A DNA stretch of 62,622 nucleotides from Agarophyton chilense. Its lineage: Eukaryota > Rhodophyta > Florideophyceae > Gracilariales > Gracilariaceae. The stretch lies in the NCBI GenBank assembly GCA_030374765.1, contig JARGXX010000024.1, positions 1 through 62,622 of the forward strand. The letters are read 5' to 3'. The position numbers were made by a program, and so were the translations under genes. Of this stretch, positions 21,001 to 62,622 are shown piece by piece; within the stretch, counting starts at the first letter, position 1, and every line of letters begins with the position of its first letter. Below the pieces are notes generated by a model. The model was not told the DNA's origin and ran no database searches. It was given only the letters and a program-made list of their open reading frames with translations.

Positions 21001-21871
21001 ACGCAATGACTGTGGGGTCAGCGTACGGGTCACGACCGATGGTAGCGGTGTAGAGCGGGGCCTAACGTTCGAATCCTTGATGGTGGCACTCCCAGAGTAT
21101 TTGGTGCAATCAGCTGGCGTTTACTGCGTAGTCCTACAGGTTGGGGCTACGGAAACGATGGCTTGAAGACCAATTGGTGGAACTAATATATCAAAGAGGG
21201 TTATTTAGTATCCTTACGGTTCCTACCTTACTCTAAGGGAGAAGCGTCACTCGAGCCGAGTAACTAGTACTGGCGAGGCGCTGAGATCTCCCTGGCACTG
21301 TAGTGCTCATCAATTACACTAATTAAAAATAATAATAATCTACATGAGTCCACCTGAGTTCGACCTGTCCACGTGTCGTCTGTAAGATCCTTCAGGGCCC
21401 GGCGGCCTACAGAGCTCAACCGTTATCATCGCTCCTTCACATATCTCCCTCCTTAGCATTTGACACGGCGAAGTCCAGATTACCTCAAGATTGACCCAGG
21501 GGACGTGAGCGCTTAGTCCCTCCCAGGACCATTGGGCGCAACGGGACGTCGCGTCGTCATCGCCTGCGAGGATGCGGGGAAGCGTCAGCTGACCATTGGC
21601 GCCAAAGGGCAATTAATTCGCCTAAGAACTGAAACTCCCACGCGCCGTGAGCGCTATCCATATGTGCATCTCCGGCGCATTCCTCGCGTCGCGTTGCCGA
21701 GACGGTCCATTGGGTTTTTCTCTTCTGACAGTCATTGGGGCCTTCCTAAATGTCATTTCTTCATTTAGCGACCTCCGCGCTTCGTTAACCGTGGCTCACG
21801 CCTGTCAGTCCGCTTGGGTCAATTCCGTCACTCTCTTTACCATCGTGGTACTTTTCCATTGGTCGCACGCG
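21001..21871. other. Presumed 3' LTR region of chromovirus B; boundaries unresolved
   Basis: By analogy with elements A and C the 3' LTR of element B should lie here, directly upstream of the antisense ORF start. The CT-rich tract GTTTTTCTCTTCTGAC near 21,714-21,730 could be the complement of its polypurine tract. I could not define TG...CA ends because no second LTR is present for comparison. Confidence 0.3.
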
Positions 21872-24109: not shown

Positions 24110-26560
24110 GAGCGTCTTGCTTCTTTCTCATGTGTCGCCTTAGAACTGACATTGTTCTCTGATGCAGGATCTACGGCGAACCGTCGTGCTACGGTGAATT
24201 GTCGTGTCGAGAGGCGGTTTGGGAGGCGTTTGGGGGTTATTCGGACCAATCGTTGCCCCCTACTGAAGGCTGCGCTCCGTGCTGCCGATTTTGCGCCAAT
24301 AGCTGGCGATAAATTAACCGGAATGGTTTGAGGCTCTTGCCAAGTGTCTTCCTCAGGTTTGTAGACGAAACAACGGAAGTGATAGCGCATAGTTCCATCT
24401 TCTCCCCGAACGGCGGAGATAATGCGCTTAATCACATATCAGTATTGGTATTCATTCTCCGGCAGGAGAGTGTGGTCCAGAGGGGCGAATCAATCGGAGT
24501 CGGTTGGAAGAGATGGGTCATCGTCATTGGTATTGAAAATCGGGTCCATGGGGCTAGTTGGGTCTGCGGGAACTGCCTTGGGGTGTGTGGGGATTTGAGC
24601 GTGGACCTGAGGTGGCAGTGATTCCATTGGACCAGGGGACTGGGACTTTGGCGATTCGGGGGAGCTGGGGGCTCATATCACCCGATCAATCGAGACGGTG
24701 TCCTGTAGGCCGTCAATTAGTAACGTAATGGTATGTTGATTGGCCTTAAGAACTTTGTATGGTCCCGTAAAGCGGGGTAAGAGCTTTGGCGTAGTGTTCT
24801 CGAAGTCCTCACTGTCCTTCGGTGGTCGGTACAGGTAAACAAGTTCTCCTTTCCCAAAGGTCGGAGTGTTCCAAACGGCTTTGTCGAAATTGACCTTGTA
24901 ACGCCGTTAGGCTTTGGTTAGTATAGTTCCAGCCGATTGAATAATGCGTTCGATGCGTCGGCGCGAGTAGCGCTTCGCCTGGGTAGGAGTCATTCCTTCG
25001 GTTATGTCCTGGTGTATGATAAACTCCTGAAGGTCCACAGCTATCGGCGGCGTCGCTCTCGTTAGCGTTAAGTCGAAAGGTGTTGTCCCCGTGGAAGCGT
25101 GCACCTGCATGTTGTAGGCATAAAACCGTGGCTCAACGTAGTCGTCCTAGTCCAATTGGTGCTCCGATACGTATTGTGTCAATCGGTCCAGATGTGTTTG
25201 GTGAAAGCGATCGGCTTTGCCATTGGTTTGCGGGTGGTACGCCGTGATGGTCACAAGTTTGATACCTAAGGTGGCACAATCGCTTGAGAAGAATTTGGAT
25301 ACAAACTGGCTGCCTTTATCCGTAAGGAGGTAGAGTGGCATGCCATATGAATACACCAAGTGGGACAAGAAGGCCGTGGCGACATCCGTGGCCGTTGTCT
25401 TTCCTAGGGGTAGGGCTAGGATAAGTTTGGTAAACCTATCGGTTATAACCAAGACAAACCGTTTTCCACGGGACAACTTAGGCAAAGGCCCAAGTCTATC
25501 CATCGCGACAAATTCCATCGGACCTGCAGCGGGGAAGAGCATCAATTTGGCCTGATGGTTGGCGCGAGACCCTCGGATTTGTGCGCATGATGTACAGTTC
25601 CGTGCGTTTTGCCATAGGTCCTGCGCCATTAGTGGCCAGTAGAAGAACTTCCTTAGGGTTTGGTACATTCCTCGGCCTGCAGGGTGACCAGCCAAGCGAG
25701 GGAAATGGGGGAGGTGTAGGAATGGCGCCCTTAGTGGACTTTGTATCACCCGTTGGAGTGCTCCATCCAGCGGTGAGCGGCGACACAGTAGTCCAAATCT
25801 GCCATAGCCGAACAGGCATCCAGGGATTCCTACCACTTGGGCTGTTTCCTTGCAGTACTCGTCTTCGACCTGCGCCTGTAGGAGTTCCTCAATAGTTATA
25901 GGGAGGAGCTCTTTCTCCTCCGGGGCTATCGCGTTAACCTGAGGTGGTGTCGAATCGGGCGGTACTGTCACCCAGTCCAATAGGTATACTTCGTCGTTCT
26001 TTACCTCAGGATCATCCGATTGGACTTTACCCATAAGTTCATCCGTTTCCGTATGACCGTGAGGTCCATTATCTATAACAAGGGTAGGAATTAGGTCGTC
26101 CAATGGAGTGTCATCAGTTCCGTCGGTAATGATTCGCGATAGGGCATCTACTGCCTGGTTCTTGATTTCTGGCCTGTAGGTTATCTCGTAGTCATATTCT
26201 GACAGCCTGAGACGCCACCGAGCGAGGCTACTTGATGCATCGGTTACATTGAGTAACCAGCGGAGTGAATCATGGTCTGTCCTAATGGTAAACCTGGTTC
26301 CCTCGAGGTACGGACGGAGTGTCAATACGTACCATACGATGGCTATTCCTTTTGGATATTATTGTAATTTTGCTCCGCGCTGGTGAGCATTCTGCTCCAG
26401 TATCCAATAGGTCGGTAGTCCTTGCATGAGAGTGTGTACCTCTCCAAACTGGAAGTCGTAAATGAACGTTGTCACACGACGCCCAGGAATCTGCAAGCCG
26501 ACATTTCCAGTGCTATAATTATTTGGCACGGGGTCAGTCTGAGCAGATGCCTCCGACGCA
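24073..26560 (-). pseudogene. Chromovirus B pol: RNase H, integrase, chromodomain
   Basis: Read on the minus strand. RNase H is at about 26,500-26,130 (TLRPYLEGTRFTIRTDHDSL, RWRLRLSEYDYEITY, VDALSRI). The integrase zinc-binding segment is at about 25,720-25,570 (HLPHFPRLAGHPAGRGM, CTSCAQIRGS). The core follows with MDRLGPLPKLSRGK, LLTDKGSQFVSKFF and HPQTNGKADRFHQT; the catalytic Glu of the usual V-E-R-F is Asp here. The integrase tail reaches about 24,690 (KLLPRFTGPYKVL), and after a Pro-rich linker a chromodomain is at about 24,435-24,330 (VIKRIISAV, YHFRCFVYKPEEDTWQEP). In-frame stops (for example at 24,907 and 25,147) show decay. Confidence 0.82.
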
Positions 26561-33668: not shown

Positions 33669-33673
33669 CACTA
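33669..33673 (+). repeat. Target-site duplication, left copy (CACTA)
   Basis: CACTA directly abuts the 5' LTR and is repeated at 44370-44374 directly after the 3' LTR. Five bases is typical for Ty3/gypsy integration. Confidence 0.95.
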
Positions 33674-34340
33674 TGTAGTATTCTACTATGTCGGGGAATC
33701 CCATAGGATGATTTTTCGCGAAGTCGCGGTTGGAACTCATAAGTGAGTGATGTCATCAAACTTGTGATATGAAACGGCACACCGCGTAGGATGCCAGGAG
33801 GCAGGGTACATTAGTGGAACACGTGGTATCACGAGTGGACTGGCTTGCAACGGCGCATGTAGTGGCGATCCACGTGGCAGGTTTTACTACCCTTTGTAGC
33901 TAGACGTCCATTAGGGACCATACCCATACAGTGGTTTGGCTAAGTGGCTGACCACTGGGTATTATTTATATATTTATTTGGGCACTCACCCTGGCACACC
34001 GTATATAGTGCACCAGAGGTGAGCGCCGACTCCAAGTAAAGGAGACAACATGGGCATCATGACTATTCTGTTCCTCGCTTAGGATTCCTTAACCGGAGAT
34101 CCGGACGAGCTATAATAGATAGTCAGCCCCCAACCACTTCACGAGCCGTCTCGTACCTACGTTCCCTCAACGTTTTACAGTTGCACTGTTCACCCTCGCT
34201 GGCGAGTAGTGGCCTTACACCCCACTTCCAGCTCGCTGGTGTTGTAGCTCTACCACCCCTTTTACTTCGCCGCAAGCGACCCATCGGCAGTCCGAACGCT
34301 GTTGCAAGTGTCTGCTCTCTCCGTTAGAGCGGATACTACA
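33674..34340 (+). repeat. 5' LTR of chromovirus A
   Basis: Starts TGTAGTAT and ends ATACTACA (8-bp inverted termini). Same length as the 3' LTR and identical to it except for seven substitutions clustered in the last 180 bp plus one near position 75. Confidence 0.97.
33961..33979. promoter_or_regulatory. TATA-like palindromic stretch in the LTR
   Basis: ATTATTTATATATTTATTT has a near-symmetrical TATATA core that could place transcription in either direction. The same stretch is in the 3' LTR at 43,990-44,008. No transcript evidence. Confidence 0.4.
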
Positions 34341-34555: not shown

Positions 34556-35458
34556 ATGCCGAAGACCCGAAGCCAGTCGAGTACTGGTCGCCCCGGTCCG
34601 GCGGGACCACCCCCGAAACCGAGGCTTGCCTCATCTGTTGAAGCCGGAGAGCGGCTGTATCGTCAAGCGATGTCGCGCTCACGCTCGGTGAATGATGAAC
34701 GAGATCTCTCGGATGTACCGGCCCCTGTGGCAGCGGCAGTCACGCCCACCACAGAAGCCGTAGTTGACCCTGAGGTCGTCGGACCTCAAGAAGAGGATGA
34801 TTTGCGCAGGGAAGTGCGTCGTCTCAAGTCTGAGTCAAGCGCTTCGCGTGTGCGCATGGTTGCGTTGGAATCGCAGATCGCTGCTCTTATCGCTGATGTT
34901 GAACAATTACGCAGTGCGCACCAAGCACTAGTTCGTCAAGACGATGGGAAGCAGGTCTCTGCATCAGGGAAAACACTACGTGAGGATTTGAACCATCTAC
35001 TGGAGAGGTACGGGAATACGCCCGATGCGCTACCCGGCTTAACAGTGGATGTAGAGGAAGTCCTCACTCGAGTTAACCCTCGTTTAGAACGCCTGGAGGC
35101 GGCAGTTCATGCGCAGACTGCTGCTAAACCAGTCGTGCTGGAAGAGGAAGGAGTTTCTTTGGAGGAAGCTCGTTCGAAGAAGTCGAAGTCACGACGTAAG
35201 AAGCCGAAGTCCGCACGTGATTCGAGTGATGAATCGTCAAGTACGGAGGGTTTCAGTTCCAGTACTGATGATTCTGATGATTCAGATACGTCAGATGACG
35301 ACGACAATGATGATGGTCATCAAAGGTCCCGATCTCGGAAGAAGAACACGTCTTCGTGTGTAATGAGAAAAAAAGGCTCACCTTACAGAGGATTGAAGGT
35401 GCTCCCGTGCACGAATCCGTTCATCGGAAGGTCCCGAATTACAGGTACTACCGTCTGA
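34556..35458 (+). CDS. Chromovirus A gag, N-terminal ORF
   Basis: From ATG 34556 (MPKTRSQSSTGRPGPAGPPP), in a longer frame open from 34379. It has a Pro/Arg-rich head and coiled-coil-like segments (RREVRRLKSESSASRVRM, LESQIAALIADVEQLRSA). A very acidic Ser/Asp tail (about 35,220-35,320) follows a Lys/Arg block. The frame meets AAAAAAA at 35368-35374 and, without a shift, ends at 35458 in unrelated residues. The capsid-like part of gag is in the -1 frame downstream, so the intact product needs either a -1 shift at the A7 run or repair of a one-base indel there. Confidence 0.75.
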   Translation: MPKTRSQSSTGRPGPAGPPPKPRLASSVEAGERLYRQAMSRSRSVNDERDLSDVPAPVAAAVTPTTEAVVDPEVVGPQEEDDLRREVRRLKSESSASRVRMVALESQIAALIADVEQLRSAHQALVRQDDGKQVSASGKTLREDLNHLLERYGNTPDALPGLTVDVEEVLTRVNPRLERLEAAVHAQTAAKPVVLEEEGVSLEEARSKKSKSRRKKPKSARDSSDESSSTEGFSSSTDDSDDSDTSDDDDNDDGHQRSRSRKKNTSSCVMRKKGSPYRGLKVLPCTNPFIGRSRITGTTV

Positions 35459-36708
35459 AGGTGAAGAGCAAGAAGCGCTCAGGACGCGAAACCGCGAAGG
35501 TGAAGGATCACATCAAACGATTGAAGATCGGCCTTAATGATTTAATATTTGATGCGCAAACCCCCATTCTCGTTATCGAGTTTCTCATTCGATTCGTTGC
35601 CGAAGCAGACACTCTAGAGATGAGTGAACCACAGGCATTTATGTCTTTACCACACTTCCTGAAGGGTTTTGCTTTAGAGCAATATCGTTCCGTACGCGGA
35701 TCATTGAAAGCCGATGAAGGCGGCGTTACCTCATGGCCAGAGGCGGTGCAGTATTGGCTGCGCAGTTACGCGACTTCAAACGCGATACCTCAGGCGATCC
35801 TGGACCTAAGGGATGTGACCCAAAAGCCTGAGGAAGGCGAAGCTGAGTACAGCTCAAGGCTTAACAAAGCTTCAGTCCGCAGTGGAAACGTCCACTCGAC
35901 GGAGGATAAGATTACCTTGTACATCAACGGGCTGGACCCGAGCATCAAGTCGGTGGTAGCTCGATATCGAGAGAAGCATGGAAGAGTCTCCTTTTTGGAG
36001 TTAGTTCAGTTTGAGAAAGCTGAAGGAGACGCGGCCAGAGCGCGTGGTAGTCCCCGTCATTTAGTGGCTTTTGGAACCTCAATGGGTAAGGAGAAGATCT
36101 CCGCCAGAGTTAATCAGCGCAGCAAACTGCGACATCTGGAATCTCCAGTTGACTCGCGAGATTTGCCGTTGGCACCCAAAGGGAGTGACTCGCATGAGAA
36201 GGCGGTCCATTTAATGGAATTTACGGACTCTTCTGTATCTACAATGGATCTCCCACACTCGGAGTCTCAGGACGAGGAAGCCCTAATGGCTGTGGAGGGC
36301 CGTCGCCCTATGTACCTTCTTTACACGGTGCCACCACAAGGAGGTTTTAAGAACGGGAAGCCCGGATGGGTGGATACTCGCACGGCATACCGTTCACAAC
36401 CTACGTTGACCAACAGTCGTGACGGTTTGATTTGTTATTCATGTTATGGAAAACACCATTTAAGTGCAGAATGCACGCTTCCTGCAAAGGATCTGAGCTG
36501 TATCATGACGAATTATGAAGCACTCTCAGAAGAGAAAAAGAGCCGCGTACCGGCGGGCATGTATTGGAAAGCCAAAAGTTGGTTTTCTCAAACACCAATG
36601 CGCCGGACGGACAGGGCGGTTGCTCAGAATGCTGAAGTGTTACAACCCGAAACCCCGGTAGGAAGAGGCGCCTTTGAAGCGAATAAGACGGTGCAACCGG
36701 AAATCTAA
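35356..36708 (+). CDS. Chromovirus A gag, capsid/nucleocapsid ORF
   Basis: Open in the -1 frame relative to the upstream ORF, entering through EKKRLTLQRIEGAP at the A7 run. The capsid-like region has FLIRFVAEADTLEMSEPQAF, LPHFLKGFALEQYRSV and WPEAVQYWLRSYA, the pattern of the Ty3 gag 'retrotrans_gag' domain. Near 36432-36473 a single zinc knuckle CYSCYGKHHLSAEC (C-x2-C-x4-H-x4-C) binds nucleic acid. It stops at TAA 36706. The pol frame, again at -1, is open from 36687, giving a 22-nt overlap. Confidence 0.85.
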   Translation: MCNEKKRLTLQRIEGAPVHESVHRKVPNYRYYRLKVKSKKRSGRETAKVKDHIKRLKIGLNDLIFDAQTPILVIEFLIRFVAEADTLEMSEPQAFMSLPHFLKGFALEQYRSVRGSLKADEGGVTSWPEAVQYWLRSYATSNAIPQAILDLRDVTQKPEEGEAEYSSRLNKASVRSGNVHSTEDKITLYINGLDPSIKSVVARYREKHGRVSFLELVQFEKAEGDAARARGSPRHLVAFGTSMGKEKISARVNQRSKLRHLESPVDSRDLPLAPKGSDSHEKAVHLMEFTDSSVSTMDLPHSESQDEEALMAVEGRRPMYLLYTVPPQGGFKNGKPGWVDTRTAYRSQPTLTNSRDGLICYSCYGKHHLSAECTLPAKDLSCIMTNYEALSEEKKSRVPAGMYWKAKSWFSQTPMRRTDRAVAQNAEVLQPETPVGRGAFEANKTVQPEI

Positions 36709-39700
36709 GTGAGGGAGCCCTTAGGGGGTCGGCACTAGTCGATCCCGTAGTGGTGACCAGGGAGAGATCGCCTCCTTGCTCCCGCGCTTGGAAGCCCAAA
36801 ATTCTCTTGAGGCCTCCAAAATTTCCGCCGTACGGAATCAATCCGCCGGACGGAAAGCGAGTACAGTTTGACTTTGAGTTACATCGTCCTTGGAGACGTT
36901 ATACTTATCCGTCAAAACGGGAAAGTTACCTCATGGTATTGTCTAAAAGAAACTATAAGCTCTATGCCAACATCGACTCTGACAGGAATCTGTTATCTCG
37001 TCAATTGACTATCCTGGACACAGGTGCTGGTCTGAACTTTATACGGGAATCGGAGCTCGCTCCTGCTGACTTAGAACGTATTCGATACGGTCCTTTACCG
37101 GACATCCGGGATGCCAACAAAAATGCTGTGAAGACACTGGGAACAGTTCGACTCGTGGTGCGTTTGGGACGCTTTGTAGTCCTAGTCGACTTCATCGTCT
37201 GTAAGACGTTAGCTGCACCAGTGGTACTGGGATGTGATTATTGCGACAAGTTTGTCGAAGCCATTCGCCCGCGAAGAAAACTAGTGGAACTAGATGATGG
37301 ATCAATGATACCAATTGTTCGCAAGCCAATGCGTCGTTGCCCCGAAGCACCTCCACTTCCACCATCTATGGAATACGGGAAATCCCGAGGACGTGTCTCG
37401 CCGAGGATTCGAGTAGCGAAGAGTGCCATGCTGAAGGCGCAAACCCAAACTTGGGTTCAAGTAAGAACAGAAAGACACGGACTGGTGGTAATTCAACCGA
37501 ATACTCGGATGTACGAATCCCGTGGATTGCTAGTCGCTAACGGCATTGCTCAGGTTGATCCTGGTAGCCCCTTTTGGATACTAGTGAGTACCTTCACCGA
37601 TAACGATTATCATATACCGAAGAATCAGGTCGTTGCAACAGCTTTGCCTCATCCCACAGTGGTGGTCGCTACTCATATTTCTACCCCAGAAATATTGGGA
37701 TTAACCCATGTCGGTGACACAGACGAAGAACTGCAAATTCCGTCTGGAGATCAATTGCAAACGGCAAAGGATCCAGAGAGCCTGGTCGATGAGCTAGACT
37801 TAGCACATGTGTCGGAACACTACAGAACGAAGATCAGGTCTATGCTGAATAAGTATACATCCATGAGGAATGGAAAACTAGGAGAGATCTCCGCTACGGA
37901 ACACCACATTGATTTGGTCCCAGGGTCACGACCCATCTCCCAACCACCCTACAGAGCGGGACCGCGAACTCGCCAAATCGAGGAGGAGAATGTCAGCAAA
38001 ATGCTGGAAGAAGGAGTAATCGAAGCAGCTCAATCTGCTTGGGCCTCATCAGTTGTGCTGGTTCCGAAACCTGATGGTTCTTTACGATTCTGCATCGCTT
38101 ATCGAAAACTGAACGCAGATACAGTTCGGGATACATACCCGTTGCCTCGAATGGACGAATGTATTGACAGCTTAGGAGAAGCGAACGTGTTCACCACGTT
38201 GGACGCCAACTCTGGCTATTGGGAGCTGCCTGTAGCGGAAGAAGACCAAGACAAAACCGCATTTGCGTGTCACGCCGGTCTCTACCGTTTCAAAAGGATG
38301 CCCTTTGGCTTAACGAATGCACCGGCTACTTTCCAGCGTACCTTGGACATCTTGCTCTCAAAATACAAGTGGAAGACTTGTTTAGTGTATTTGGACGATG
38401 TGATCATCTTTTCCCAGGATGTGGGAAGCCATTTACGGGATGTCGAGGAGATCCTCAAAGCACTATAGAGCGCAGGTATCACCTTGAAGTAAAAGAAATG
38501 CAAATGGTTCGCTGGCACCGTCCGGTACTTAGGACACGTGATCAAGCCGGGACAGCTTGCCATTCAAGAGGCACAAACAGTGGCTCTCCGCGAAGTACAA
38601 CCTCCGTCGACACAGAATCAATTGCGTTTTTTCCTCGGCTTGCGCAACGTCTACCGACGATTCGTGCTGCGATACTCGCATATAGCGGCACCACTCCACG
38701 CAAAGCTGCGTAAAGGACAACCAGTACAGCTGGAACAATTCAGAAAAGCTGAAGCTGAAGCGTTCGACACGCTGAATACAAAGATTATTACAGCCCCAGT
38801 CTTGGCGCTGCCCATCCCCGACCTGCCATACTCAGTGGATACCGACTCTAGCTAGTACCAAGTAGGGTGTGCTCTTTTTCAAACACACCCTGATGGTGAA
38901 CGCAAACCCATTGCTTACTGGTCAAGATCGCTGAACGCAGCTGAGAAGAAGTATTCAGTTTCAGAAAAGTAATGCCTTGCAGTCGTTTGGGCTGTAACCA
39001 CTTTGCGACCGTATCTCCAAGGAGAACGTTTTACCGTCAACACGGATCATTCGTCTCTACGATGGTTACTGTCCATTACAGACCCGTCTGGTCGTCTCAC
39101 ACGATGGCGCTTACGCCTTTCTGAATTCGGTTTCGAAGTGAAGTATAAGAAGGGATTGGCCAATGTCCAAGCTGACGCGCTATTGCGACTCAAAACACTG
39201 GGCGAAACCCAAGGCGAAATCGATGAAGAGATACCTTGCTTCCACATGGAGACCCATTCACCATCTTTTGAAGAAGAGGAACAAGAGACCCTTGATGATA
39301 ATTCGGATGCAGACCCGTTCCTTTCATTAGCAGACACTGATCCTTCATTTCAATTCGAGCGAATCTCGTGGACTGAGCTCCTCACTGAGCAACACGCCGA
39401 TACGTTTTATGCGTCGATACGCTCTCGTCTTAACGGGGGAAAAGAGCTCCCCTTTTCACTCGATTCACGAGGAATACTGTTACGACATGTCGAAAGGCAT
39501 GATCAAATCGTTGTTCCACACGTCTTGAAGAGTCGAGTACTCCATCTGGCACACTACAGCAGGCTGTCTGATCATCCAGGAGGAACGAAGTTGTTCATGA
39601 CTCTAAGAAGAGATTTTTACTGGCCTACTTTGGCAATAGACTGCCATGCTACAGTGAGGTTGTGTACAACATGTGTGAAGAATCGCGTGAAGCTTTACAG

Positions 39701-41447
39701 GAAGCGGAAACCGATGACGTTATTCCAGGCGAAAGCGCCTTTACAATACGTCAGTATCGACATCCTAGGGGAATTGGTTCGCTCAAGGCAAGGTTATCGC
39801 TACCTATTGGTAATCACCGACCGCTTCTCGAAGCTAGTGCGGACTGTGCCGCTGAAGCGGATAACCACAACCGTAATCGCACAGGCGTTTATCAAAAACT
39901 GGGTATTTATATACGGACCACCAGAAGTTCTGTTATCAGATATTGGGAAGCAATTCGTTTCGAAGTTCTTTCAGAATGTTTGCCGCATAATGGGCATTCG
40001 AAACGTGTTTACCACGACCTATCATCCGCAATGCAACAGTCAGGTGGAGCGTTTCAACCGCACGCTGATAGCAGCACTACGACACTACATCGCGGACCAC
40101 CCGAAAGAATGGGACATGTGTACAGATACTCTGTGCTATGCATTCAATACGCAAGTGCTTACCTCTACAAAGACGGCACCGTTCTACCTCGTGCTCTCAC
40201 GTAACCCTCCGGCATTACCGGTTGCGCTCGACGACGAGACCGAATTGGACGCGCCGACGCCGGCCAAGTACCATCTGAAATGGAGGAATGACCTGAAGGC
40301 CAGAGCGGAAGAAGCCGCTAAAGAGTTATCAAAGACGCAAGATCGCTATAAGCGAAACTATGACGCCAGAAGGCGAAGAGGAAATCCGGCAATCCGAGTA
40401 GGAAGTCACGTCTTCGTGCGAGTTGAAAGACCGGACAAACAGGAAGAATCTCGTCATAAGTTGTTGCCGATAGCGGCTGGACCCTTCAAAGTGGTGGACC
40501 TTGATGAAGACACAGTGGTCATCAAGACAGGTGAGGACGTTGAACGTGTATCGCGCGATCGCGTTGAAGTCGCGCCTGACCCGCAAGTGGAAGTCCAGGT
40601 ATCTGGTAGAACTAAGGAGGCAAGTGCGACGGAACGTCAAGGCAAAAGCCCAAGTGACTCTGGGGAGAGTGAACCGCCACCAATGGCTGGAGCGGAGGAG
40701 GAAGCTCCTGATCTCCCACCGCCAGCGGTTGCGTACGCCAATCACGGACAGCTTCCGAAATATCGGGATATGCCCCGTGGCACGCACACACCCGTAAGTA
40801 CAGAAATGGAACCTGAAAGCAGGAAAGATGTTTTGGAATTTGGCCCCAAGGACTTGAAAACGAGTGCACGCGAACACGCGCCGTTGCCCCTTCAGGCTGA
40901 ACCGTCAGGTGAAGCTCCACTTGCTGTTCCGCCGATATCGGCTCCCATCCCTCGTGGGCAGGAAGAAGAAGAGGTATCACCTCCTGTCGTGGTGCAAGCA
41001 CCATCATCCACCCAACAGCGGTTAGAATAGGATAAACGGAAGGAAGTTCATCCACGAATGGAATTGAGAAGTAGCAAGAAGTACGCTTCTATGGAACCTG
41101 GAAAACAGGATAGCTCTTTATCTGAGAAAGGTTCTCAAGGAATGAGTACACTGCCCCTGCGGGAAGAACGACAGTTAGTCGACGATCGAACGCTTAGCGA
41201 CGCGGAGACTGCTAACACAGAGACGCTTGGGTCAGCCCTAAGGCATTTCAAACCTGTTAACAGGAGTCTCGCGCCAACAGCGAAAGCATTGGGAAATGCC
41301 CAAAAATATGTTATGGATCGCATATGTGAACATGGCGAACATGAAGATACCAGAGAATTACTGTATCGAGTCCGTTGGTACGGTTTTCCTCCGGAAGCGG
41401 ATACGTGGGAACCCATAGCTCATATCCCCCGTTCGCAACTCGTGTGA
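36687..41447 (+). pseudogene. Chromovirus A pol: protease, RT, RNase H, integrase, chromodomain
   Basis: A single frame with no frameshift but five stops (38466 TAG, 38490 TAA, 38853 TAG, 38970 TAA, 41028 TAG). Protease: LTILDTGAGLNFI (37,010) and PVVLGCDYCDKF. RT: VLVPKPDGSLRFCIAYRKLN, GLYRFKRMPFGLTNAPATFQ, and YLDD at 38,389-38,400. RNase H: PYLQGERFTVNTDHSSLRWL, DALLRL (usual S is L). Integrase: H-x-H at 39,540, CTTC at 39,664, then SIDILGEL, LSDIGKQFVSKFF (usual N is I) and NSQVERFNRT. After a Pro/Glu-rich linker a chromodomain closes the protein (YVMDRICEH, LYRVRWYGFPPEADTWEP, 41,310-41,440). Chromodomains steer chromovirus integration to particular chromatin. The stops make this copy non-autonomous. 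Confidence 0.95.
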
Positions 41448-41640
41448 TATCATCGACGCATGCGATTACCACTCCCCAGGGAGATCGACTCCTCGATAGT
41501 AGGGCTCATGGGCACATCCCATTTCTAAGTATGGGCTACCAAGGTAGAAAAACTCGAAAGGCGGGAAGAGTACAAGAAGTCATGTGGAAGAAAAGTGAAA
41601 ACACGCAAGCACAGTAAATTTACTGATTATCACCTAGGAA

Positions 41641-41758
41641 GAACTAGAGAAGCGAGAGAAGAAGGATTGAAGAACTCGAGAAGCGAGAAGAGATGATTGA
41701 AGAACTCGAGAAGCGAGAAGAAGAAGTTAAGAACTCGAGAAGCGAGAAGAGATGAAGA
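41641..41758 (+). repeat. About 30-bp tandem repeat, four units, between pol and the antisense ORF
   Basis: Units start at 41641, 41672, 41702 and 41731 with GAACT(A/C)GAGAAGCGAGA, spaced 31, 30 and 29 bp. Purine-rich on the plus strand. It separates the convergent 3' ends of pol and the antisense ORF. Confidence 0.9.
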
Positions 41759-41856: not shown

Positions 41857-43678
41857 TTATCCAATAGACGTGCGAGCACGCAGGTTCGCAAGAAGCTGTG
41901 CGCGATCACCCTCAACTTGGTCCACGGGAAAGCCCGCATCTAAGAGGAACTGCCTCAGCGGATCCAAGCCTGGATCTTCGACCGGCACTGCTCTCGGTTG
42001 TTGGGTAAACCCACGAGAGTACTCTTGAGCAACTCCCGCCGCTGCGGATTGATCGACGGAAGTCGCTACGCCTGCCAGCTCTGGCTCGTCCTCGTAACGG
42101 AGTTCAGCCTCAGCTTCCGGCGCTTCCTCATACGGTTCCTCTCCGTTCTCGGATGGAGTAGCATCGTACACGTATCCAGTAAGCTGGTTCGGTGGCATGT
42201 CACGCGGGTTCTCCCGAAGAAAGCGAGCCTGCTCGGAGGTGATCAACTGGCGCGTCCAGGGGTCGTACCAAACGAAATCTCCAGCACTTTCTGTTCGTCC
42301 AGGAGAATGGTCATAGTGTCTTGCACGGGTTCCGCGAGCAGATTGATCAGCTGGCACTCCAGACCATTCGACACTGTCGATTACATCTACGAGATGGAGG
42401 AAGTCGGCATGGTTCGCACGGGATCCCAGGACAAGGGAAAGATCGAGTTCTCTCGCATACTTTCGCGCTGTGGGCGACATGTACCAAACTCTAAAGGTAT
42501 CATAAGCATCCCACAGGAGGAAGACGGCCATATTGGCGATAAATTCGGTATAAACCACCGTCCAATATCCCGAGAACGGGTCGTTAACCAACGCGGACCC
42601 GATGTAGGAGATCGCCGGTGGAAGCTCCACAGGGCAACCACGAGGACTCTCGATCGCCGCCCAATGCTCCGGAATACCGATGTAGCGCCCGAAGCGCGCG
42701 TTCCGCCGGATGCGGTCAATCTCGATCATTTGATACGGCACCAAATAGCCCAAACGTGATCGAGTACGACGTTCCCAACGGGGATAAACCCAATAGGGAA
42801 TGTCACGCTTTCGAAGGAAGCGGAACTCCCCACGGAGAAGAGGTTGCTGAAAGAAGAGAGCTGCATCACGCACACCGCGCACACCGCGCCAACCGCTAAC
42901 ATCGACTTCAACGAGTGTCTCGATACACGAGTAACCATCAACGTCGGTACGGGCTTTCCAGGTATCTAGTTCCCAGTCGTGCGGGAGGAGAACCGTACTG
43001 ATTAATTGATGAAGACGCTGGTAAATCAGCTTGGTGAACCGCGTACGGGCTTCGGATAAGATTTCCGTTGAATATCGCGTTGTCTGGCAAAGCAATATGG
43101 CTCGCCCAGTCGTTGCTATAAATCGCGTGTTTTGGAATACCGTCGGGGAAGTACCCGCCGTGTACATACTGTTTTATCAACGCGTCATCGCGGATAGCAA
43201 CTGGATCAAACCAGGGCGCTTGCGGGAAAGGTTCAATGTTGTCGAGAGGATCTCGTCCATAGAAATCCGCAGGGTGCGGGTAGCTTCGCTGAGCAAAACG
43301 AAAAGGAGCTCGAATCAAACCCGCAGAGGCGACGTAAGCCGCGTTCGGCATCGGAGCCACGGTTGGCTGAGATAACGGTACCGACCGGAATGCGGTGTAA
43401 GGTGTGAGGAACGAACGGTATGGACCGAGTTGAGCAGTAGACTGCGACGCAGAACCAGCAGTGTTTGACGGAGCCCTAGAAGGTACATCCTCAGAGGAGG
43501 GCTGAAACGGGTTGGACCCGGCGTTCGGATCCATCGCGAAAGATCGAGCTGAAGAGCGGTGAGGAACAGAATGCTGTTGAGAACTGTAAGAGTTGGTCGT
43601 GTGGCGAGGAATTCGTGATGACGATGAGTACCCGTAACACCGGTCCGGCTGCGCATAAACGCTTTTTGCGTCCCCCAT
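41857..43678 (-). pseudogene. Antisense ORF protein of chromovirus A (aORF-A), unknown family, one frameshift
   Basis: Starts at ATG 43678, 24 bp inside the 3' LTR boundary, and runs antisense to gag-pol. Frame one (43678-42938) and frame two (43167-41857) join by a one-base shift near 43,060, giving about 606 residues. The order is: a Ser/Pro/Gln-rich leader; APWFDPVAIRDDALIKQY; DWASHIALP; an Arg/Tyr/Trp-rich middle with RGEFRFLRKR, RLGYLVPYQMIEIDRI and RYIGIPEHWAAIE; ELPPAISYIGSA; SGYWTVVYTEFIANMAVFLL; DFLHLVDVIDSVEW; GDFVWYDPWTRQL; an acidic tail; and FLLDAGFPVDQVEGD near the end. All of these blocks recur in aORF-C. No signal peptide, furin-like site or convincing membrane anchor is seen, so it does not look like an envelope gene. 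Function unknown. Confidence 0.8.
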
Positions 43679-43692
43679 GGTTCGCGCTTAAC

Positions 43693-43702
43693 GAGGGGGG
43701 TA
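43693..43702 (+). promoter_or_regulatory. Polypurine tract of chromovirus A
   Basis: GAGGGGGG followed by TA and then the LTR TG at 43703. This primes plus-strand DNA synthesis. The same G-run-TA-TG arrangement is found, inverted, in element C. Confidence 0.85.
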
Positions 43703-44369
43703 TGTAGTATTCTACTATGTCGGGGAATCCCATAGGATGATTTTTCGCGAAGTCGCGGTTGGAACTCATAAGTGAATGATGTCATCAAACTTGTGATATG
43801 AAACGGCACACCGCGTAGGATGCCAGGAGGCAGGGTACATTAGTGGAACACGTGGTATCACGAGTGGACTGGCTTGCAACGGCGCATGTAGTGGCGATCC
43901 ACGTGGCAGGTTTTACTACCCTTTGTAGCTAGACGTCCATTAGGGACCATACCCATACAGTGGTTTGGCTAAGTGGCTGACCACTGGGTATTATTTATAT
44001 ATTTATTTGGGCACTCACCCTGGCACACCGTATATAGTGCACCAGAGGTGAGCGCCGACTCCAAGTAAAGGAGACAACATGGGCATCATGACTATTCTGT
44101 TCCTCGCTTAGGATTCCTTAACCGGAGATCCGGACGAGCTATAATAGATAGTCAGCCCCCAACCACTTCACGAGCCGTCTCGTATCTACGTTCCCTCAAC
44201 GTTTTACAGTTGCACTGTTCACCCTCGCTGGCGAGTAGTGGCCTTACACCCCACTTCCAGCTCGCTGGTGTTGTAGCTCTACCACCCCTTTTACTTCGCC
44301 GCAAGCGACCCATCTGCAGTCCAAACGCTGTTGCAGGTGTCTGCTCTCTCCGTTAGAGCCGATACTATA
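43703..44369 (+). repeat. 3' LTR of chromovirus A
   Basis: 667 bp. The last bases are GATACTATA, where the 5' LTR has GATACTACA, so the terminal CA is mutated to TA. CACTA follows at 44370. Confidence 0.97.
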
Positions 44370-52207: not shown

Positions 52208-55200
52208 TTGGGTCTCCAACGGAGACCAGCATATTTCAGGTTACCAAAGATGAAAAAATTAAAAAATGCTGGAACAAGAACGTTGCGCATACTACAACTG
52301 AACTGCAGAAGCCTTCTACGGACGGGGAAACGGAGTGAGATAGCGCGCCTCGCGCACACCTGGAGAGTAGACTTGCTTCTTCTGCAAGAAACTCACTTAC
52401 GCAAGGGAGATCGCAACCCGTCCATCCAAGGCTTCTCAGTAGTAGGCAGATGTGACAGAGAGTGGGATTTTAGTATGAATGGGGGCAGAGGTCGCGGGGT
52501 AATAACATACCAGAGAAACGATCTCAGTCTCGATCTTCTCACAGAACGCTCAATTACGACAGGATTTGAAAGAGTGACTGTTCTTATGCGGAGTCCACGA
52601 GGTTTACTGTCTATTGCCAATGTGTACATACCACCACAGCTCCGGATGACAAAATGGTATACATTACTCGACGACCAAGACATGATAGTCAAAGACTGTA
52701 ATATTTGTGGCTCATGGTACCCTTCAAGAGCCGAAGCAGCAGGAATTGAGTTTGAGGAGCACATGCAGAAGACGCAGCGAGAGGTATTGAATATGGATTG
52801 CGTTGCAACTCACACAGATCCGGCAAGCCGATCACAGAGTAGCATAGATGTGGCGGTCATCCCGGAAAAATGGCTACCTCTCACTACATGGGAAGCAGCA
52901 CCAGAACCTTTTACAGATCATCACGCATGCCTCATAACAGTAGATGTGGGAAAAAAGAAGTACGTTCAAGACAAAAGGAAGCACTGGAGCTTACGTAGAG
53001 CGGACTGGAAAAAATTCTCCATAGAAGTAGAAAACAGGCTTTGTATGATAGATAATAGAGAAGTAGAAAGTATTGATAAGCTCAATGAAATGTTTTATGT
53101 AGCAGTTCTAGAAGCAGCAAAGCATTCAGTACCATTTGGGAAAAGAAGACGAGAAGCACCATGATGGAGCCCGGAGGCAGCAGAAGTAGTGGAAATGAGA
53201 GCAATCAGGTGGAAAGAATTCCAAGTCAATCCGAGTGAGGAAAACAGAACCGCTCTACAAAGAGCCCAATATCACGCAAGAGTTGTCATTGATAAGCTAA
53301 AACGAGAAACATGGAAAGAAATGATGGAATCGTTACGACCACAAGACGAAGATGCAAAACTGTGGAGAATAGTGAAAGCAATTGACAAGAGCAGTATGGA
53401 ACATCCAAGCTTTTTTCCACCGGCTGGAGAACGCTGGCTGGATAAAAAGCGAGCAAAGTGGTTTGTAAAATCAGAAATTCGGAACGCCCGAACTCATGAG
53501 AAGGAAACAAGATCACGAAATGAGTACAGAAAAGCTCTAAACGATTACCGCACGAAAGCAAAGGACACTGAAGCATGGACGAACAATACATTTGACATGC
53601 ACCATTTGGAGGTGGAGCTCAAAGAAATGAACCCTAAGAAAGCCGGAGGTCCGGATCTAGTACAGATAGCCTTTCTTCAGCATCTTCCAGAATTGGGAAA
53701 GAAATGGCTTCTTGAAATAATTAACAAGAGCTACAAGGAAGGTAAGACACCGGCCAAGTGGAGACTTTCACGCCTTATCCCGATCCCCAAACCAGGAGTT
53801 AAAGGTAAGTTTCGGCCGATATCACTTACCTGTGTTGTAGCAAGGGTGGCAGAAAGAATGGTTAACAGGCTGTTTATGAACTGGCTGGAACCAAGACTAC
53901 CGGCATGCCAAGCGGGATTCAGAATGATGCGAACAACCGAGGAGCATGTTGTGGCTTTATGTGAACGAATTACACATGGCTGGCAGCATAGAAGACAGAC
54001 ATTAGCCTTATTCTGTGACTTTTCTAAGGCTTATGATTGCGTGCAACACCATAAGTTACTGGTGAAGTTAGAAAGAATGGGATGCCCAACAAAGTTGTGG
54101 AGATGGATTAGAGCGTTTATCATGGACCGACGATGGACCTGCAGATGGAAAACATCGGACACCAGACCGTTTGTCGTACCACAAGGACTCCCGCAAGGAG
54201 GGACCCTCTCCCCGGGATTATGGATAGCTTACGTTTCAGATCTTCCGAACAAGGTAAAGCAAGGCGACGATCGAATTGAGGTAAGCTTATTTGCGGATGA
54301 TGTTTCCATATCTTCGACCCAAAGAAAACTAGAGTTTAGCCGACATGCTATTCAGGCAGCAGTTGAAAGATTGGAAGTATATTGTGCAGAGAACAATATC
54401 CAAATGAACCCTAAGAAAACTTCGTTGGTGCCGTTTACTTATTCTAATTGGAAGAAAAAAAGAACAAAGTATGAAGTAAAACTGGCGGGCTCGTGGATAC
54501 AACTTTCGGAATGTGCGAGGTTTCTAGGGGTTGTACTGGACTGTAGACTTAACTTCCACCATCACCTCAACCGCGTAGCAGCAAAGTACAGAGCAAGGAA
54601 CCGAAAATTGCGCTGTCTCACTGGCACCACCTGGGGAGCAGATTGGAAGACCATGAACACCTTTCGGGTCGGCTTCGCAGAGCCAATCGCTAGATATGCT
54701 GCCAGTATTGTCATCCCTAACGCGATAATATGCGCAGCGGAGGAAGTAGAAAGGGCACGAAACGAGGCCTCCAGAATCCAGACCGGTTGCGCGAAATCCT
54801 CACCCATACTGAAGTTGAGAAGTTTATTGGACCAACCAAGTTTGTACAATATTGCAGTGTCTCAAGCGGCAAAACTCTACGAAAAAGCGAAACGATGTTT
54901 TAAGGATAGTTTATCACCGATCGCTCTGGCTGTGAAGAAAGAGTCGTTAACTCGCATTCGAAAATCAAGAAGTACTTTCAAAAAGGCAGCCGAACATCAA
55001 CTGGCTACTTGCGGGCTACTTATGCTACCAAGAGAACCAATGCCTGTACCGATCGTGATTCACAATTCCAAAAGTATTTGCTTTCATTACACCAGCTGCA
55101 CAAAGAAAGATAATATCGATTTTCAACGTCAGCAATCTTTAAGTATGCTACGAAGCTTGCGGAAAGCAGACTGTGAAATATGGAGCGATGGTTCTGTTGG

Positions 55201-56326
55201 GCGCCCAAATTGGCTTGAAATCAAGAAACCATTACGAGCAGCTGTCGAATGGAATGAGGGATGGTACACAGGGTATATAGAATACTTACGGAAAAGTGGT
55301 AACTACTCAAAAACAGTACAGAACTTTTACAAGAAACACGGAAGGTCACCGGATATTTCGATTCATTACGACGACGGGTTCGTTATGGCCTATTCTATAT
55401 CTGAAAACCACCGAAATCTTGTTGATGCAGATGGACACGAACTAAGCTGGAAAACTCTAGAAATTACTGAAGTAGGAGGGAGTGCGTTTGCAATTTGGTG
55501 GAACGATGATAAAGAACCGCAAAAAGGAATGTTCCCGGCAGGAGTTGAAACGTGCTCCTTTTTTACTGAGATAAAGGCTTTGAAAAAAGCGTTGCAAGTT
55601 GTTCTGATACGCGTTAGGGAGGAATGGATTGGAAATATAAGAATTGTTACCGACTCTCACAGCATATTGGATAATCTCAGAGGAGTTGCCCGACATCAAT
55701 CGTATTCTCTACAACAAGTATCTATCAGCCTTTCTGAAATTGGAAAGTACTGTACCGTTGATATGGTTTGGATTCCAAGCCATTGTGGTATCCCTCGAAA
55801 TGATATGGTGGATAACCTAGCAAAAGAAGCTCTGAATATTTCTATGCAAGATCAAGTCGCCGTTCCAGTTGATTTTGCGGATGTGAAGAGAAGGGTCATA
55901 ACGAAGGAAAAGAAGTCCCCATTAATAGAAAACATTCCAGAAGGACTGGAAAACATTGTTTCTCTACGAGAGGCAAACGTCGCTTTATCGCAACTTGTAG
56001 TTGGTCACACACCGTGCTTGCATCCATTGGGGTCGTACTTACAGAAGAAAAGGCTCTATTGTACCTGTAGGCCGGGGGTGCTCAATGATGTAGATCATTA
56101 TGTCTTAAGATGCCCGTCGAGAACTATGTCAAGAAGAATATGTTTGCCCCTTGTGCAAGAACGTCAACGCCTAGCGGTAGACGAAATCATCAAGAAGTGG
56201 CCAGAAAAAGTGCTGGTCTTCCTAGTGAGGGAACGTTTTTTTGACAAAGAACGCTCTGCACTACGTAGGAATTGGACAAGTGTGCCCGTAAAGAGAGAGA
56301 GAGAGAGAAGCCAAGCTATCTGCTAG
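52208..56326 (+). mobile_element. I/ingi-type LINE: endonuclease, RT, RNase H, C-terminal CCHC; one TGA
   Basis: One frame of about 1,372 codons, open except TGA at 53162-53164 (APWW context, TGG to TGA). APE-type endonuclease, residues about 15-255: RILQLNCRS, LLLLQETHLRKGD, KDCNICG in place of the usual G-D-F-N, SIDVAVI, FTDHHACL. RT: FRPISLTCVVARVAERMVNR, CDFSKAYDCVQ, PQGLPQGGTLSPGLW and the FADD box near 54,292. RNase H: IWSDGSVG, FTEIKALKKAL, IVTDSHSILDNL, WIPSHCGIPRNDMVDNLAKE. The C-terminal zinc motif CTCRPGVLNDVDHYVLRC is at about 56,060-56,110. The first RNase H Asp and the GGSAFAIWW strand are about 97 residues apart, much more than usual. The near-intact frame implies a recent copy. 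A GA microsatellite encodes RERER at the end. Confidence 0.93.
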
Positions 56327-57732
56327 ATTCAAATAACAACCTAAAAAGGCGACAGATACCTTTGAGCATCACACGAAATTTTTTTAACGAGTTTTTGAAC
56401 AACAGGTGGGTCGTTCCTTGAGAGAACAAAAGATCCGGACGTGCCAGCGCGAAGCAGAAATTGAAACAAAACGTTGAAAATCGTGTTGAATCTGGGCACT
56501 CGAGCCTATACAGGTTGATGACAGAGCCTGTTATCTTGAAAGCTGACAAAGGACGAAGCAAGCGAAAGCACAGTGTTGCTTTTCTTTTAAAAATCTCATC
56601 CTTCGATGGTAGACTCGCGTTAAACCGATGATCGTCTCAAAGCATCTTCTTCCAAACAAAACACTTCATCAAGAGCCACTATATAATATAGAATACTACT
56701 GTAAACTCTCTACTTTTATACCAAAAACGAATATAAATATAAAATAACCAGCAGTGCTCGGCGCACTCATTTACACATAGCGTGCACAACCAGTCCGTCG
56801 GAAATGATGCTCCCTGACAGGAGCAAGATTCGTGACAACGGGCAAGCGGTAAAAAAGCGGAAGTCGTAGAAAACAACCTTAACCAAGCTTTCCTTTCATT
56901 TCTCCCTCCTTACTTGTAGGTACGTCATCCGCGACGGCAGACAAAGCAGTGGAGATCCTGCATAAGAAGAACTCAGGGTTCCTGGTTCCAAATCCTAGTA
57001 AAAAGATCAAACAACTGAGAGCGACGCTCAAGTCTTTTGGCAGTGTACACTCTCAAATTTCATTATATACACCTTTTGCGCCATTTTGATCAACTCTTCC
57101 GATTTGTTAACTTCCACTAACGGTCGAACATGTGCATCTCCCGATTTTTGTGGAAAAATTCTCTCTGATAAACAACAGCAAAAAAACTCCATAACACTAA
57201 TAATAGCACAAAGGGGTATTTATCTGGGTTCTGTTTCATAGGCTTTCGGTATATGTCCTCGCCGCAAATTGGTGCGATAACAGCAGCACCAGTTGCCCTA
57301 TTCGAAACCCTAAGCGTCGTTCTTGTTCGAGAGTATCCACCTATGGTATGAACAACCCATAAAGGCTCTTTGTTCTGCAACTCAGCCTTAATCCATCTTT
57401 AATCTGGCTTGCGCTGTGGTTTCACCCAACTGCGGTGTTTAAAGAACCGCTGATGGGGATGTACACCAATGGAAAGAGATTGGCACCAAAAGATATTTCG
57501 GTCCTTGCAAACACTTCGTGGTATTGGTGGTATTGTGTGGCGGTTCTCATTCATACGATAAATCGTCGCGAGAGCGATTTCGTAGATTCATTGCATACGA
57601 ATTTTGTCTTTTTTGGTCATCATGGGCTTCAGAAGGCTACTTTTCAATACTTTATCTTCGACGGTCTGGCGGTTGATGTCGGTCTGTACCGCATTAACTG
57701 TGAAATTGAACATCTCGACCACGTAGCGAGTA
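56327..57732. other. LINE 3' flank and unresolved sequence
   Basis: No supported gene. A minus frame (57380-57117, beginning MQNKEPLWVVHTIGGYSRTR) and a plus frame (57435-57848) have protein-like composition but no motif I recognise. The second runs into the presumed LTR of element C. The LINE poly(A) or repeat tail was not identified. Confidence 0.35.
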
Positions 57733-58598
57733 TGTGTAGGACAATGCTCCCAAAGGGGAAAACCTACGAAGACGTCCGGATCTTCCTCTCACGAGGTAAC
57801 CGGCGCGGTAGAGCCCTCCCAGGGATCGGCGCGCAATGCCGGGTGTAAGCCGGAGCCGAACCGTCGCGACGGCGCAGGGAGGCTGAAAGAAGTCGAGAAT
57901 ATCCGCAGTAGTGGTGCTTGCGTATCCTTTGAGGAGGCAAAACCCACGAGAGTGGCGAGCACGACAGATGTCAGTGCGAGCCGCAAGAGTGGGAATTGCC
58001 CAATGAAGGGGAGAAAAAGGGAAGGAAAATGGGAACGGAGGCAAGAGGGCGAGGTTGATCACGGGTCGCAAGAGGGGACTCGGGAATAGCCGGCACTGCC
58101 GGGTGTAGCAAACCGTATACACGGGCGGAACCACGAAAGTGGGAATAGATACCCAACACACGAAGGCTGCTTGAACGTCCAAGGGGGTTGGGAAGCCGTG
58201 CACCACGGGAAATCCCTCCGTAAGGAGTTGTATATCCGCGCACGCGGTTCGACCCAGAGCCAAGATCTGGAAGACCAAGATCACCCTTGTTGGGGAGACT
58301 TTACTGGACCGGCGGCCGCGAAGCCGGCGGCCTAAGTACTGTAGTCACCGTAGAATAGAAGAAATAAAGTCTATCCTAAATAGCTAAATGTCCGTCTAAC
58401 AAAAGGGGCCATTCTGGCGACCACGTGTCGCGCAGGCGCTGCGGCCACGTGTATGGCACCCGGTCCCGCCGGTGCATCACCGGCGTTCCGGCCATCGCCG
58501 TAAATACGGATTACTCCTACTCATAACGAGGTTGCACGCCGGAGGCTCCGGAAAAAACTTAAGTCCCCAAAAACCTCCCTGGAGGACGTTGCTCTTCA
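57733..58598 (-). repeat. Presumed 3' LTR of chromovirus C
   Basis: The edge next to the internal region is well placed: on the minus strand a G-run, ATA, then TGAAGAGC at 58598. The distal edge is a guess from the change in base composition and a TGTGTAGG near 57733, since the other LTR is outside the window. Confidence 0.45.
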
Positions 58599-58601
58599 TA
58601 T

Positions 58602-58611
58602 CCCCCCCTTT
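58602..58611 (-). promoter_or_regulatory. Polypurine tract of chromovirus C
   Basis: Minus strand AAAGGGGGGG followed by ATA and TG of the LTR, matching the GAGGGGGG-TA-TG junction in element A. Confidence 0.75.
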
Positions 58612-58645: not shown

Positions 58646-60421
58646 ATGGCAGCTCGTCATGATAAGAGCGCGTCCGACACCGGGTCTCCGGAAACCAACA
58701 CACCTTCACCAAAGATCCCACGCACGCTCTCCGCATCCGATTCCAACCACAGCACACCAACACGCACCATCTCCAACCCCGACCGTCATAACACATCCGC
58801 GACTCCCGCCCTTGGCGGTTCCACCGGCTTCCGGTCCGCGCCCCACCCTGTGGATGTTACTAACCTTGCGTACGAAGACCGCCGTATTGGCGCCCGCTTT
58901 CGCGGACAGGCGGACCCACCGCAGTGGCCGACCTACGACGCCCTTGTGGGTGCAAATCCGAGAACTCGGCATGGCTCCGCGATATTGCGGTATGCGCCTT
59001 GGTTTCACGCATTGGCTGTCCGCGACGAGGATTTGATCCAATCCTACACCGATAATTCGGAGATGCTCCCGGGCGACCTGCCCGGCGTGGTGACCATGTC
59101 CTGGGATTGGCGTAATCGCATCGCCATCCCGGTACACCACATTCTCCGCCGACGCGGTGAATCCTCTGCGGAGGCTCAGGTCACGCTTGTGCGGATCGCT
59201 TATCTCAGGCACCATCGGGCGCCTTTCGAGTTCCCGATACTGCCAGAGGTCGAATTCGCCGTCCACCTTTACCGCGCTCGCGGGGAAATGTCGTACTGCG
59301 ACCGTCTCAATGGATTGGAAACCCTCGCTTGGAGGGGCACACCGATCGCTCGGCAAGAAGCGTTTTGCTGGGTAAGACCGATTCTTCGGGCAGAGTTCCG
59401 CTACCAACCGCGGCAGTCGCGCTCGAACTTCCTTCAGAACTTCATCCGCGATGAGCGGCGTTGGCGGGCCCGGACCGGGTATTTCGTACCATACCAGAAC
59501 ACGGAGATTGAGCGCATCGCGCCTGCTCACCGACGTGGTCGGTACGTCAGTCTCCCAGACTGGTGGTCCTCCTTGGAGGCGTGCTGGGGTTGCTTCGTTG
59601 AGCTGCCCCCAGTATTCACCTATGTAGGGTCGTCGTTCTTGAAAGATCCCCAGTCGGGGTGGTGGTCCGTCGTGGTAAGCGAATGGGCCGTCCGCACTGC
59701 GGCTTTTATCCTCGCTGAGGCGTAAGACCAATACCGATTGTGGTACGTGCCACCGCGTGAGCGGGCTGCGATCCGCCGTTTGGACATGCGCATCCCCCTC
59801 GGGGGCGAGGCGAACGAAGAAGAGATGCTGGGCCTCCTCGACTTTGTGGAGGGGGTCCAGTGGGATGAGGTCCCGCTGGAGAGCTCCCAACGCATTCAAC
59901 CGCGTCGCGGGTCTGGCCCCGGATTCGGGAGGAATACAGCGCTAGCGGGGGATTTCATCTACTTCGACCCCTGGGATTACCACGAGATCAGCCGCGAAGA
60001 AGCGGAAGCCAACCGGCATGCGCCGCGTGAAGTCCCGGCCGACCACCCGCGAGGGTATATCGACTCGAGCGACTATTACCGCGACTATGCGGATGGTGAC
60101 CCGATGGTCGACAACGAACCGGAGGATCCGGGTTACGCTCCGATGGAGGGTGAGGAGTCCGGCGAGGCCGGTGAGGAGTCCGTTGAATACGGTGGTGCGG
60201 CTCCATCCGGGGCTGCTGATGCCGTGCGAACGGATTCCTATCCGACTCCATCGGTGGCGGGCCCGCCCGCCACCGCCGCTGGCACGGAGCGGGGCGAGGT
60301 CATCGCGCGCTTCCTTCGGGAGGTGGGGCTTCGCCCTTCCGAGATCTCTGGTGATGTGGCCTCCATGCGGGATGCCTTAGCCAACCGCCTGGGCGGGGGT
60401 CCACCTCGTGCGGAGGAATGA
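58646..60421 (+). pseudogene. Antisense ORF protein of chromovirus C (aORF-C), unknown family, one stop
   Basis: ATG 58646 (MAARHDKSASDTGSPETNTP) lies 47 bp from the LTR edge. One frame of 591 codons is interrupted only by TAA at 59723. A Ser/Thr/Pro-rich leader is followed by APWFHALAVRDEDLIQSY, DWRNRIAIP, LRAEFRYQPR, RTGYFVPYQNTEIERI, RYVSLPDWWSSLE, ELPPVFTYVGSS, SGWWSVVVSEWAVRTAAFIL, LLDFVEGVQWDEV, GDFIYFDPWDYHEIS, an acidic tail and FLREVGLRPSEISGD. Each block has a counterpart in aORF-A in the same order and spacing. It runs opposite to pol. No recognised domain. Confidence 0.82.
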
Positions 60422-62560: not shown

Positions 62561-62622
62561 AGCGAAAAGATTCCGACTGATCGGTGGTAATGGCGCAAGC
62601 TTTGGTGGCTGGCCCTTCCGCA

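Follow-up and report, generated by a model that had tools for sequence, protein, structure and literature searches.

A conserved protein-coding gene lies on the strand opposite gag-pol, between the end of pol and the 3′ LTR, in LTR retrotransposons of the red alga Agarophyton chilense, and its protein forms one family in at least three, probably four, element lineages of this genome (A, C and D, with B probable). The window analysed is the whole 62,622-nucleotide contig C24 of a 79.8 Mb assembly. Elsewhere, this assembly encodes an NCBI protein of A. chilense (P0006), identical at 100% over residues 1–363, as expected for this alga or a very close relative. Three elements in it (A, B and C) had originally been predicted to be chromoviruses, each with an antisense ORF of 590–750 codons. 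Antisense coding sequence between pol and the 3′ LTR was found in all three elements, but no window copy is a single open ORF. The predicted sizes fit the intact sibling frames located elsewhere in the genome, which span 608 (A), 591 (C) and 682 (B) codons.

Element A lies on the forward strand between a 5′ LTR of ~667 bp (33672–34340) and a 3′ LTR (43701–44369) that is 99.1% identical to it (6 differences in 667), with CACTA flanks on both sides. It encodes a gag frame (35356–36708; Retrotrans_gag, 2.3e-7), frames for reverse transcriptase, RNase H and integrase (36750–41030; RVT_1, 5.1e-24; rve, 1.4e-13) and a chromodomain (41304–41414; PF00385, 8.1e-9), which is placed at the end of pol behind the integrase, as is characteristic of chromoviruses. 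The antisense gene (41857–43678, minus strand) consists of two overlapping frames, owing to an 8-nt gap relative to an intact sibling that shifts the frame, and the polypurine tract GAGGGGGG (43693–43700, plus strand) is located between its start codon and the 3′ LTR. Imperfect repeats of ~30 nt occupy positions 41534–41755, between the chromodomain and the antisense gene, and one sense frame across them reads as a charged repeat. At the site matching element A, contig C93 carries a solo LTR (G000:C93:498300-499060, L078), so that two closely similar stretches differ there; C24 and C93 may be haplotypes.

Elements B and C have their pol genes on the minus strand and their antisense genes on the plus strand. 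The 3′ LTR of element C (57735–58598, minus; 864 bp) is bordered on its left by GTATG, which is also present outside the opposite LTR of the corresponding element in contig C93. The LTR is succeeded by the polypurine tract (58601–58611, minus; a pyrimidine tract on the plus strand), the antisense gene (58646–60421, plus), which differs from an intact sibling by one premature in-frame stop, and a chromodomain (60827–60964, minus) scoring 21.3 of 25.1 bits, under the Pfam curated cut-off. No integrase was found between RNase H and the chromodomain in this copy. A decayed fourth antisense-gene fragment (57411–57734, plus) ends at the insertion point of element C and represents an older element of the same kind beneath the younger one. 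In element B, the limits of the 3′ LTR (20996–21443, minus) are inferred from an inverted nested copy in locus L047 and from a pyrimidine tract at 21444–21454. The antisense gene (21872–24109, plus) is degraded, with four stops, a 3-nt gap and 30 inserted nucleotides relative to the intact sibling L046. The end of RNase H and the integrase lie at 25147–26325 (minus; rve, 7.3e-12), and a chromodomain-like stretch at 24319–24438 (minus) was recognised by eye only and gave no Pfam match. The chromodomain, the hallmark of chromoviruses, is clear in A, below the cut-off in C and seen by eye in B. In L047, a B-type LTR (172–620) has inserted in inverted orientation, immediately in front of the antisense gene belonging to a B copy. 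Elsewhere in the window, a LINE-like element (52208–56326) has an endonuclease frame followed by a reverse transcriptase with RNase H, and a 604-aa open frame without a Pfam match (10866–12680, minus) is absent from the antisense-family profile matches listed.

The antisense ATG is separated from the 3′ LTR by 22–24 nt in A, 47 nt in C and ~430 nt in B, where the LTR is inferred. With both LTRs, the chromodomain and the polypurine tract as landmarks, the antisense genes of A and C are placed between pol and the 3′ LTR, and that of B occupies the same interval as judged with the inferred LTR. Both positional hallmarks of an antisense additional ORF of LTR retrotransposons (aORF-3R), orientation antisense to gag-pol and location between pol and the 3′ LTR, are thus present. 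We scored orientation across the genome from the coordinates of the nearest pol marker within 4 kb, among the marker matches listed, at 95 A, 31 D, 149 B and 112 C places; most of the places not counted below had no marker among these matches. The gene was opposite to the marker in 93 of 94 places (A, 22/22; D, 5/5; B, 5/6; C, 61/61), and in all 93 the pol gene lies downstream of the antisense gene in the gene's own direction. When family C was compared with the integrase matches listed, two markers fell within 6 kb, one on each strand and not necessarily in the same element.

The family also shows a further hallmark of an aORF-3R, a conserved protein encoded in many copies. A genome search returned at least 96 A-type, at least 150 B-type and at least 113 C-type places. 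The sibling frame was free of stops in 5 of the 12 A copies fetched, in 20 of 27 distinct C copies (from 30) and in 2 of 22 B copies, after exclusion of 8 gappy copies from 30.

The antisense proteins of A and C are clearly homologous at the sequence level, with 35% identity over 415 aa (E = 1e-70). The ordered blocks that had been predicted for the family are present in both proteins, the similarity being retained in a proper alignment, and the FLxxxG-type tail described for A and C was recovered there and in most full-length relatives. The protein of lineage D is about 54–55% identical to that of A. B had been described as a diverged member of the family, and its matches to C (2e-6), to A (1e-4; ~20% identity) and to the A/C-type profile agree with this, making membership probable but not certain. 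Profile–profile comparison (hhalign) of the A/C type with B gave a probability of 93.1 (E = 3.2e-7, 204 columns). A profile built without B rows (A6) matched one B piece in the window at 5.5e-4, and with this profile five of six B proteins outranked all 300 shuffles while the sixth fell under the best shuffle; E was below 0.01 for two of the six. We consider B a probable distant relative of the A/C type.

Comparison with pol provides a rough guide to co-inheritance, since the pol pieces compared differ between lineages. Identity to A in the antisense protein and in pol was 55% and 50% (integrase) for D, 35% and 48–51% (reverse transcriptase) for C, and ~20% and 35–38% (integrase) for B. The two thus diverge from A in the same order, which favours joint descent over recent capture. 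In one D copy, the antisense gene (55% identity to A) lies ~370 nt from the end of the C-terminal part of the integrase (50% identity to A), and the two are on opposite strands; a reversed C-type pol stretch is nested upstream.

Relatives were also found in other genera. Among the best 8000 candidates scored in each search of 5.8 billion proteins, there were 23 relatives, of which A. chilense accounts for 6, Gracilariopsis chorda for 3 and Gracilaria domingensis for 1, with 13 others. A 19-sequence tree places family C together with P0008 of G. chorda, P0012 of G. domingensis and one further sequence (100/100), separately from the A and D types, indicating that the lineages predate these genera, barring movement of elements between species. 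Across 21 aligned sequences, 30 columns were at least 90% conserved, and 9 of these 30 are arginine. Patterns from one relative (P0010) gave no match in IMG/VR viral contigs.

Family C occurs in two forms. In 28 of 93 places, including that of the window, RNase H runs directly into the spacer before the chromodomain, and no integrase was found in the two such copies that were read (the window copy and L073). In a further 64 places the match starts only at the spacer (residues 112–125), and in one it starts at residue 67; one of the 64 (C12:263580-264050) has an integrase core that shares 62% identity with its counterpart in A. The integrase-less form, to which the pol of element C in the window (60827–62622) belongs, has spread beside the integrase-bearing form. 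Three C-type units form a tandem array that repeats every 9197 bp (G000:C68:3138181, 3147378 and 3156575; L029–L031, L073 and L074). In the tandem integrase-less copies L029–L031 a 618-codon antisense frame is open, and the antisense gene is thus kept where the integrase is not.

To assess selection, we compared all six frames. Differences between A and D fell at codon positions 1/2/3 of the antisense frame in proportions of 26.5/23.3/50.2%, and those within C and B in proportions of 28.7/26.6/44.7% and 30.1/25.5/44.4%, respectively, all biased to position 3, whereas the young copies of A showed hardly any bias (33.5/30.9/35.6%). For the antisense frame, the pooled dN/dS was 0.776 for A, 0.509 for C and 0.409 for B, and 0.16 for A against D, a comparison in which dS is 2.3 and near saturation. 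The antisense frame had the lowest value in three of these four comparisons; within A, one sense frame was marginally lower (0.770 against 0.776). The A frames are generally alike (0.77–0.89, with one at 1.12), the pattern to be expected when most differences date from after insertion, and A alone therefore gives no evidence of selection. Codon models with kappa held at 1 gave omega values of 0.499 (B) and 0.521 (C), with gains of 149 and 28 log units, respectively, over omega = 1. The selected function that had been proposed from conservation is accordingly supported by codon-level purifying selection in B, in C and between A and D.

The antisense frame could in principle be open by chance or as the shadow of a gene on the sense strand: a 411-aa sense frame is found opposite the gene in many C copies, and one sense frame has a reduced dN/dS (0.63 in C, 0.52 in B and 0.32 between A and D). 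That frame, however, mirrors the third codon positions and holds 20–29 stops per copy (20–26 in B and C, 25–29 between A and D). The other frames have values of 0.92–1.17 in B and C and 1.18–1.77 between A and D, giving 0.92–1.77 for the other sense frames overall, and it is the antisense frame that shows homology with other genera. We therefore reject a chance ORF or sense-gene shadow on the six-frame dN/dS values and stop counts, and regard its probability as negligible; homology across genera together with codon-level selection excludes a chance ORF. It is also very improbable that an antisense RNA, and not the protein, is the functional product. Antisense non-coding transcripts occur in other elements (PMC7264820), but here purifying selection acts on codons of the antisense frame and the protein is conserved across genera. 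The RNA could still have a role in addition to that of the protein.

The antisense protein has a variable N-terminus and a conserved core of ~350 residues in which many arginines are invariant; an acidic linker follows, and then a short tail resembling a pair of helices. As originally stated, it has no recognised domain: no member exceeded a Pfam cut-off, no family in Pfam, NCBIfam or PHROGs was above cut-off for the antisense proteins, and a PDB sequence search gave no meaningful match. When the tail was scanned alone, three of the 15 members matched Ish1 (best 0.0024) and one matched HeH (0.2), and in single members Clp_N (0.017) and HipN (0.07) scored about as well; all were under the Pfam cut-off. 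The matches to E3_binding (4 of 13 members, best 0.029), Ish1, Clp_N, HipN and xylose isomerase are weak, and are either leads or chance. Most of the 22 antisense proteins are acidic. By a crude pattern, basic clusters occur in 4 of them (for example, PPKKR in B) and in none of the other 18. A mean hydropathy above 1.6 over 19 residues was reached in 2 of the 22, without a consistent membrane segment.

The likeliest role for this protein is that of a DNA- or chromatin-linked accessory factor, a reading suggested by its position, by analogy and by the weak motifs. A role of this kind is known for HBZ of HTLV-1, which is a bZIP factor; no bZIP match was listed in the Pfam scans of the antisense proteins. 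In the reading that we tentatively prefer to the others, an antisense promoter in or beside the 3′ LTR would drive the gene, and the protein would thereby be made independently of gag-pol RNA. The protein would act in the nucleus in association with DNA or chromatin, tuning the transcription of the element or a late nuclear step. That it would help the element that bears it is suggested by the integrase-less C copies, which keep open antisense frames. The same role has been proposed for plant antisense ORFs (PMC11963269, PMC7264820). Several observations speak against this reading: the tail matches stay under the cut-offs and are rivalled by Clp_N and HipN, most of the proteins are acidic and 18 of 22 show no basic cluster, family A by itself gives no sign of selection, and the start codon of B is ~430 nt away from the LTR.

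Other roles appear less probable. Instead of acting on the element's own transcription or integration, the protein might counter host silencing or defence at the level of small RNA or chromatin; families with at least 96–150 places in an 80 Mb genome would gain from such an activity, and the conserved arginine-rich core could bind RNA, but the protein matches no known suppressor or other domain, and we consider this unlikely. A structural function, as an envelope-like protein or a part of the particle, is more doubtful still. Sense Env-like ORFs occupy the same interval in some plant elements (PMC7264820), but the gene studied here is antisense, only 2 of 22 proteins pass the hydropathy threshold, and Gag is separately encoded in A; an Env-like identity is not supported. 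Equally doubtful is a very distant relationship to the TRP28 (PF04195) proteins of Retand, which share the place, the orientation and a proposed DNA-binding role (PMC11963269). Across the whole genome, nothing exceeded the PF04195 cut-off, in a search for which the control genomes held no positive control, and Retand belongs to a non-chromovirus lineage. The sole match (C115:1611170; 20.2 of 26.2 bits, E = 0.05) is at no listed antisense-gene place, in keeping with the original prediction that the family differs from the plant ones.

Most known examples of antisense genes in LTR elements come from flowering plants, one fungal family and some retroviruses. HBZ is likewise encoded by an antisense accessory gene near a 3′ LTR and offers a model of how a gene of this type could act, whereas in the present proteins neither bZIP nor any other Pfam domain reached cut-off. 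The antisense ORFs of plant Ty3/gypsy elements (Retand TRP28/PF04195, Grande gene23, RIRE2 and PvRetro13) are similarly antisense to gag-pol, placed between pol and the 3′ LTR, and present in many copies and several species (PMC11963269, PMC7264820); in Retand, antisense ORFs that encode TRP28 are present in 97% of clusters. HTLV antisense genes are also mentioned in PMC11963269. The red algal gene differs from these in its protein and in its hosts, red algae as opposed to flowering plants, and in the chromodomain of A (below cut-off in C), Retand being a non-chromovirus. Outside plants, brtn in the Boty-like elements of Botrytis cinerea occupies the same interval (PMC7264820 and PMC8365987), a comparison made by position only. 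The literature searched, mostly without subscription papers, yielded no report of this antisense gene in a red alga. Systems of this kind are known; the protein family appears to be new.

An apparently unrelated protein family is found at the same place in red algae, in lineages A, C and D and probably B, with relatives in other genera that are protein matches, and the usefulness of backward-facing accessory genes to such elements seems to extend further than flowering plants and fungi. If the recurrence is independent, the position beside an antisense-capable 3′ LTR would itself be useful. Its role can be tested on the numerous natural copies, among them those that lack an integrase yet retain the gene. 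With somewhat greater reserve than for the nuclear role itself, we propose that red algal chromoviruses have had, since before the genera of the Gracilariaceae split, a private antisense regulatory gene with a fold unseen elsewhere, which may have an origin separate from those of plant TRP28 and the retroviral antisense genes and may be so useful in cis that integrase-less copies keep it. If this is true, antisense accessory genes beside the 3′ LTR would represent a recurrent, convergent solution of LTR elements.
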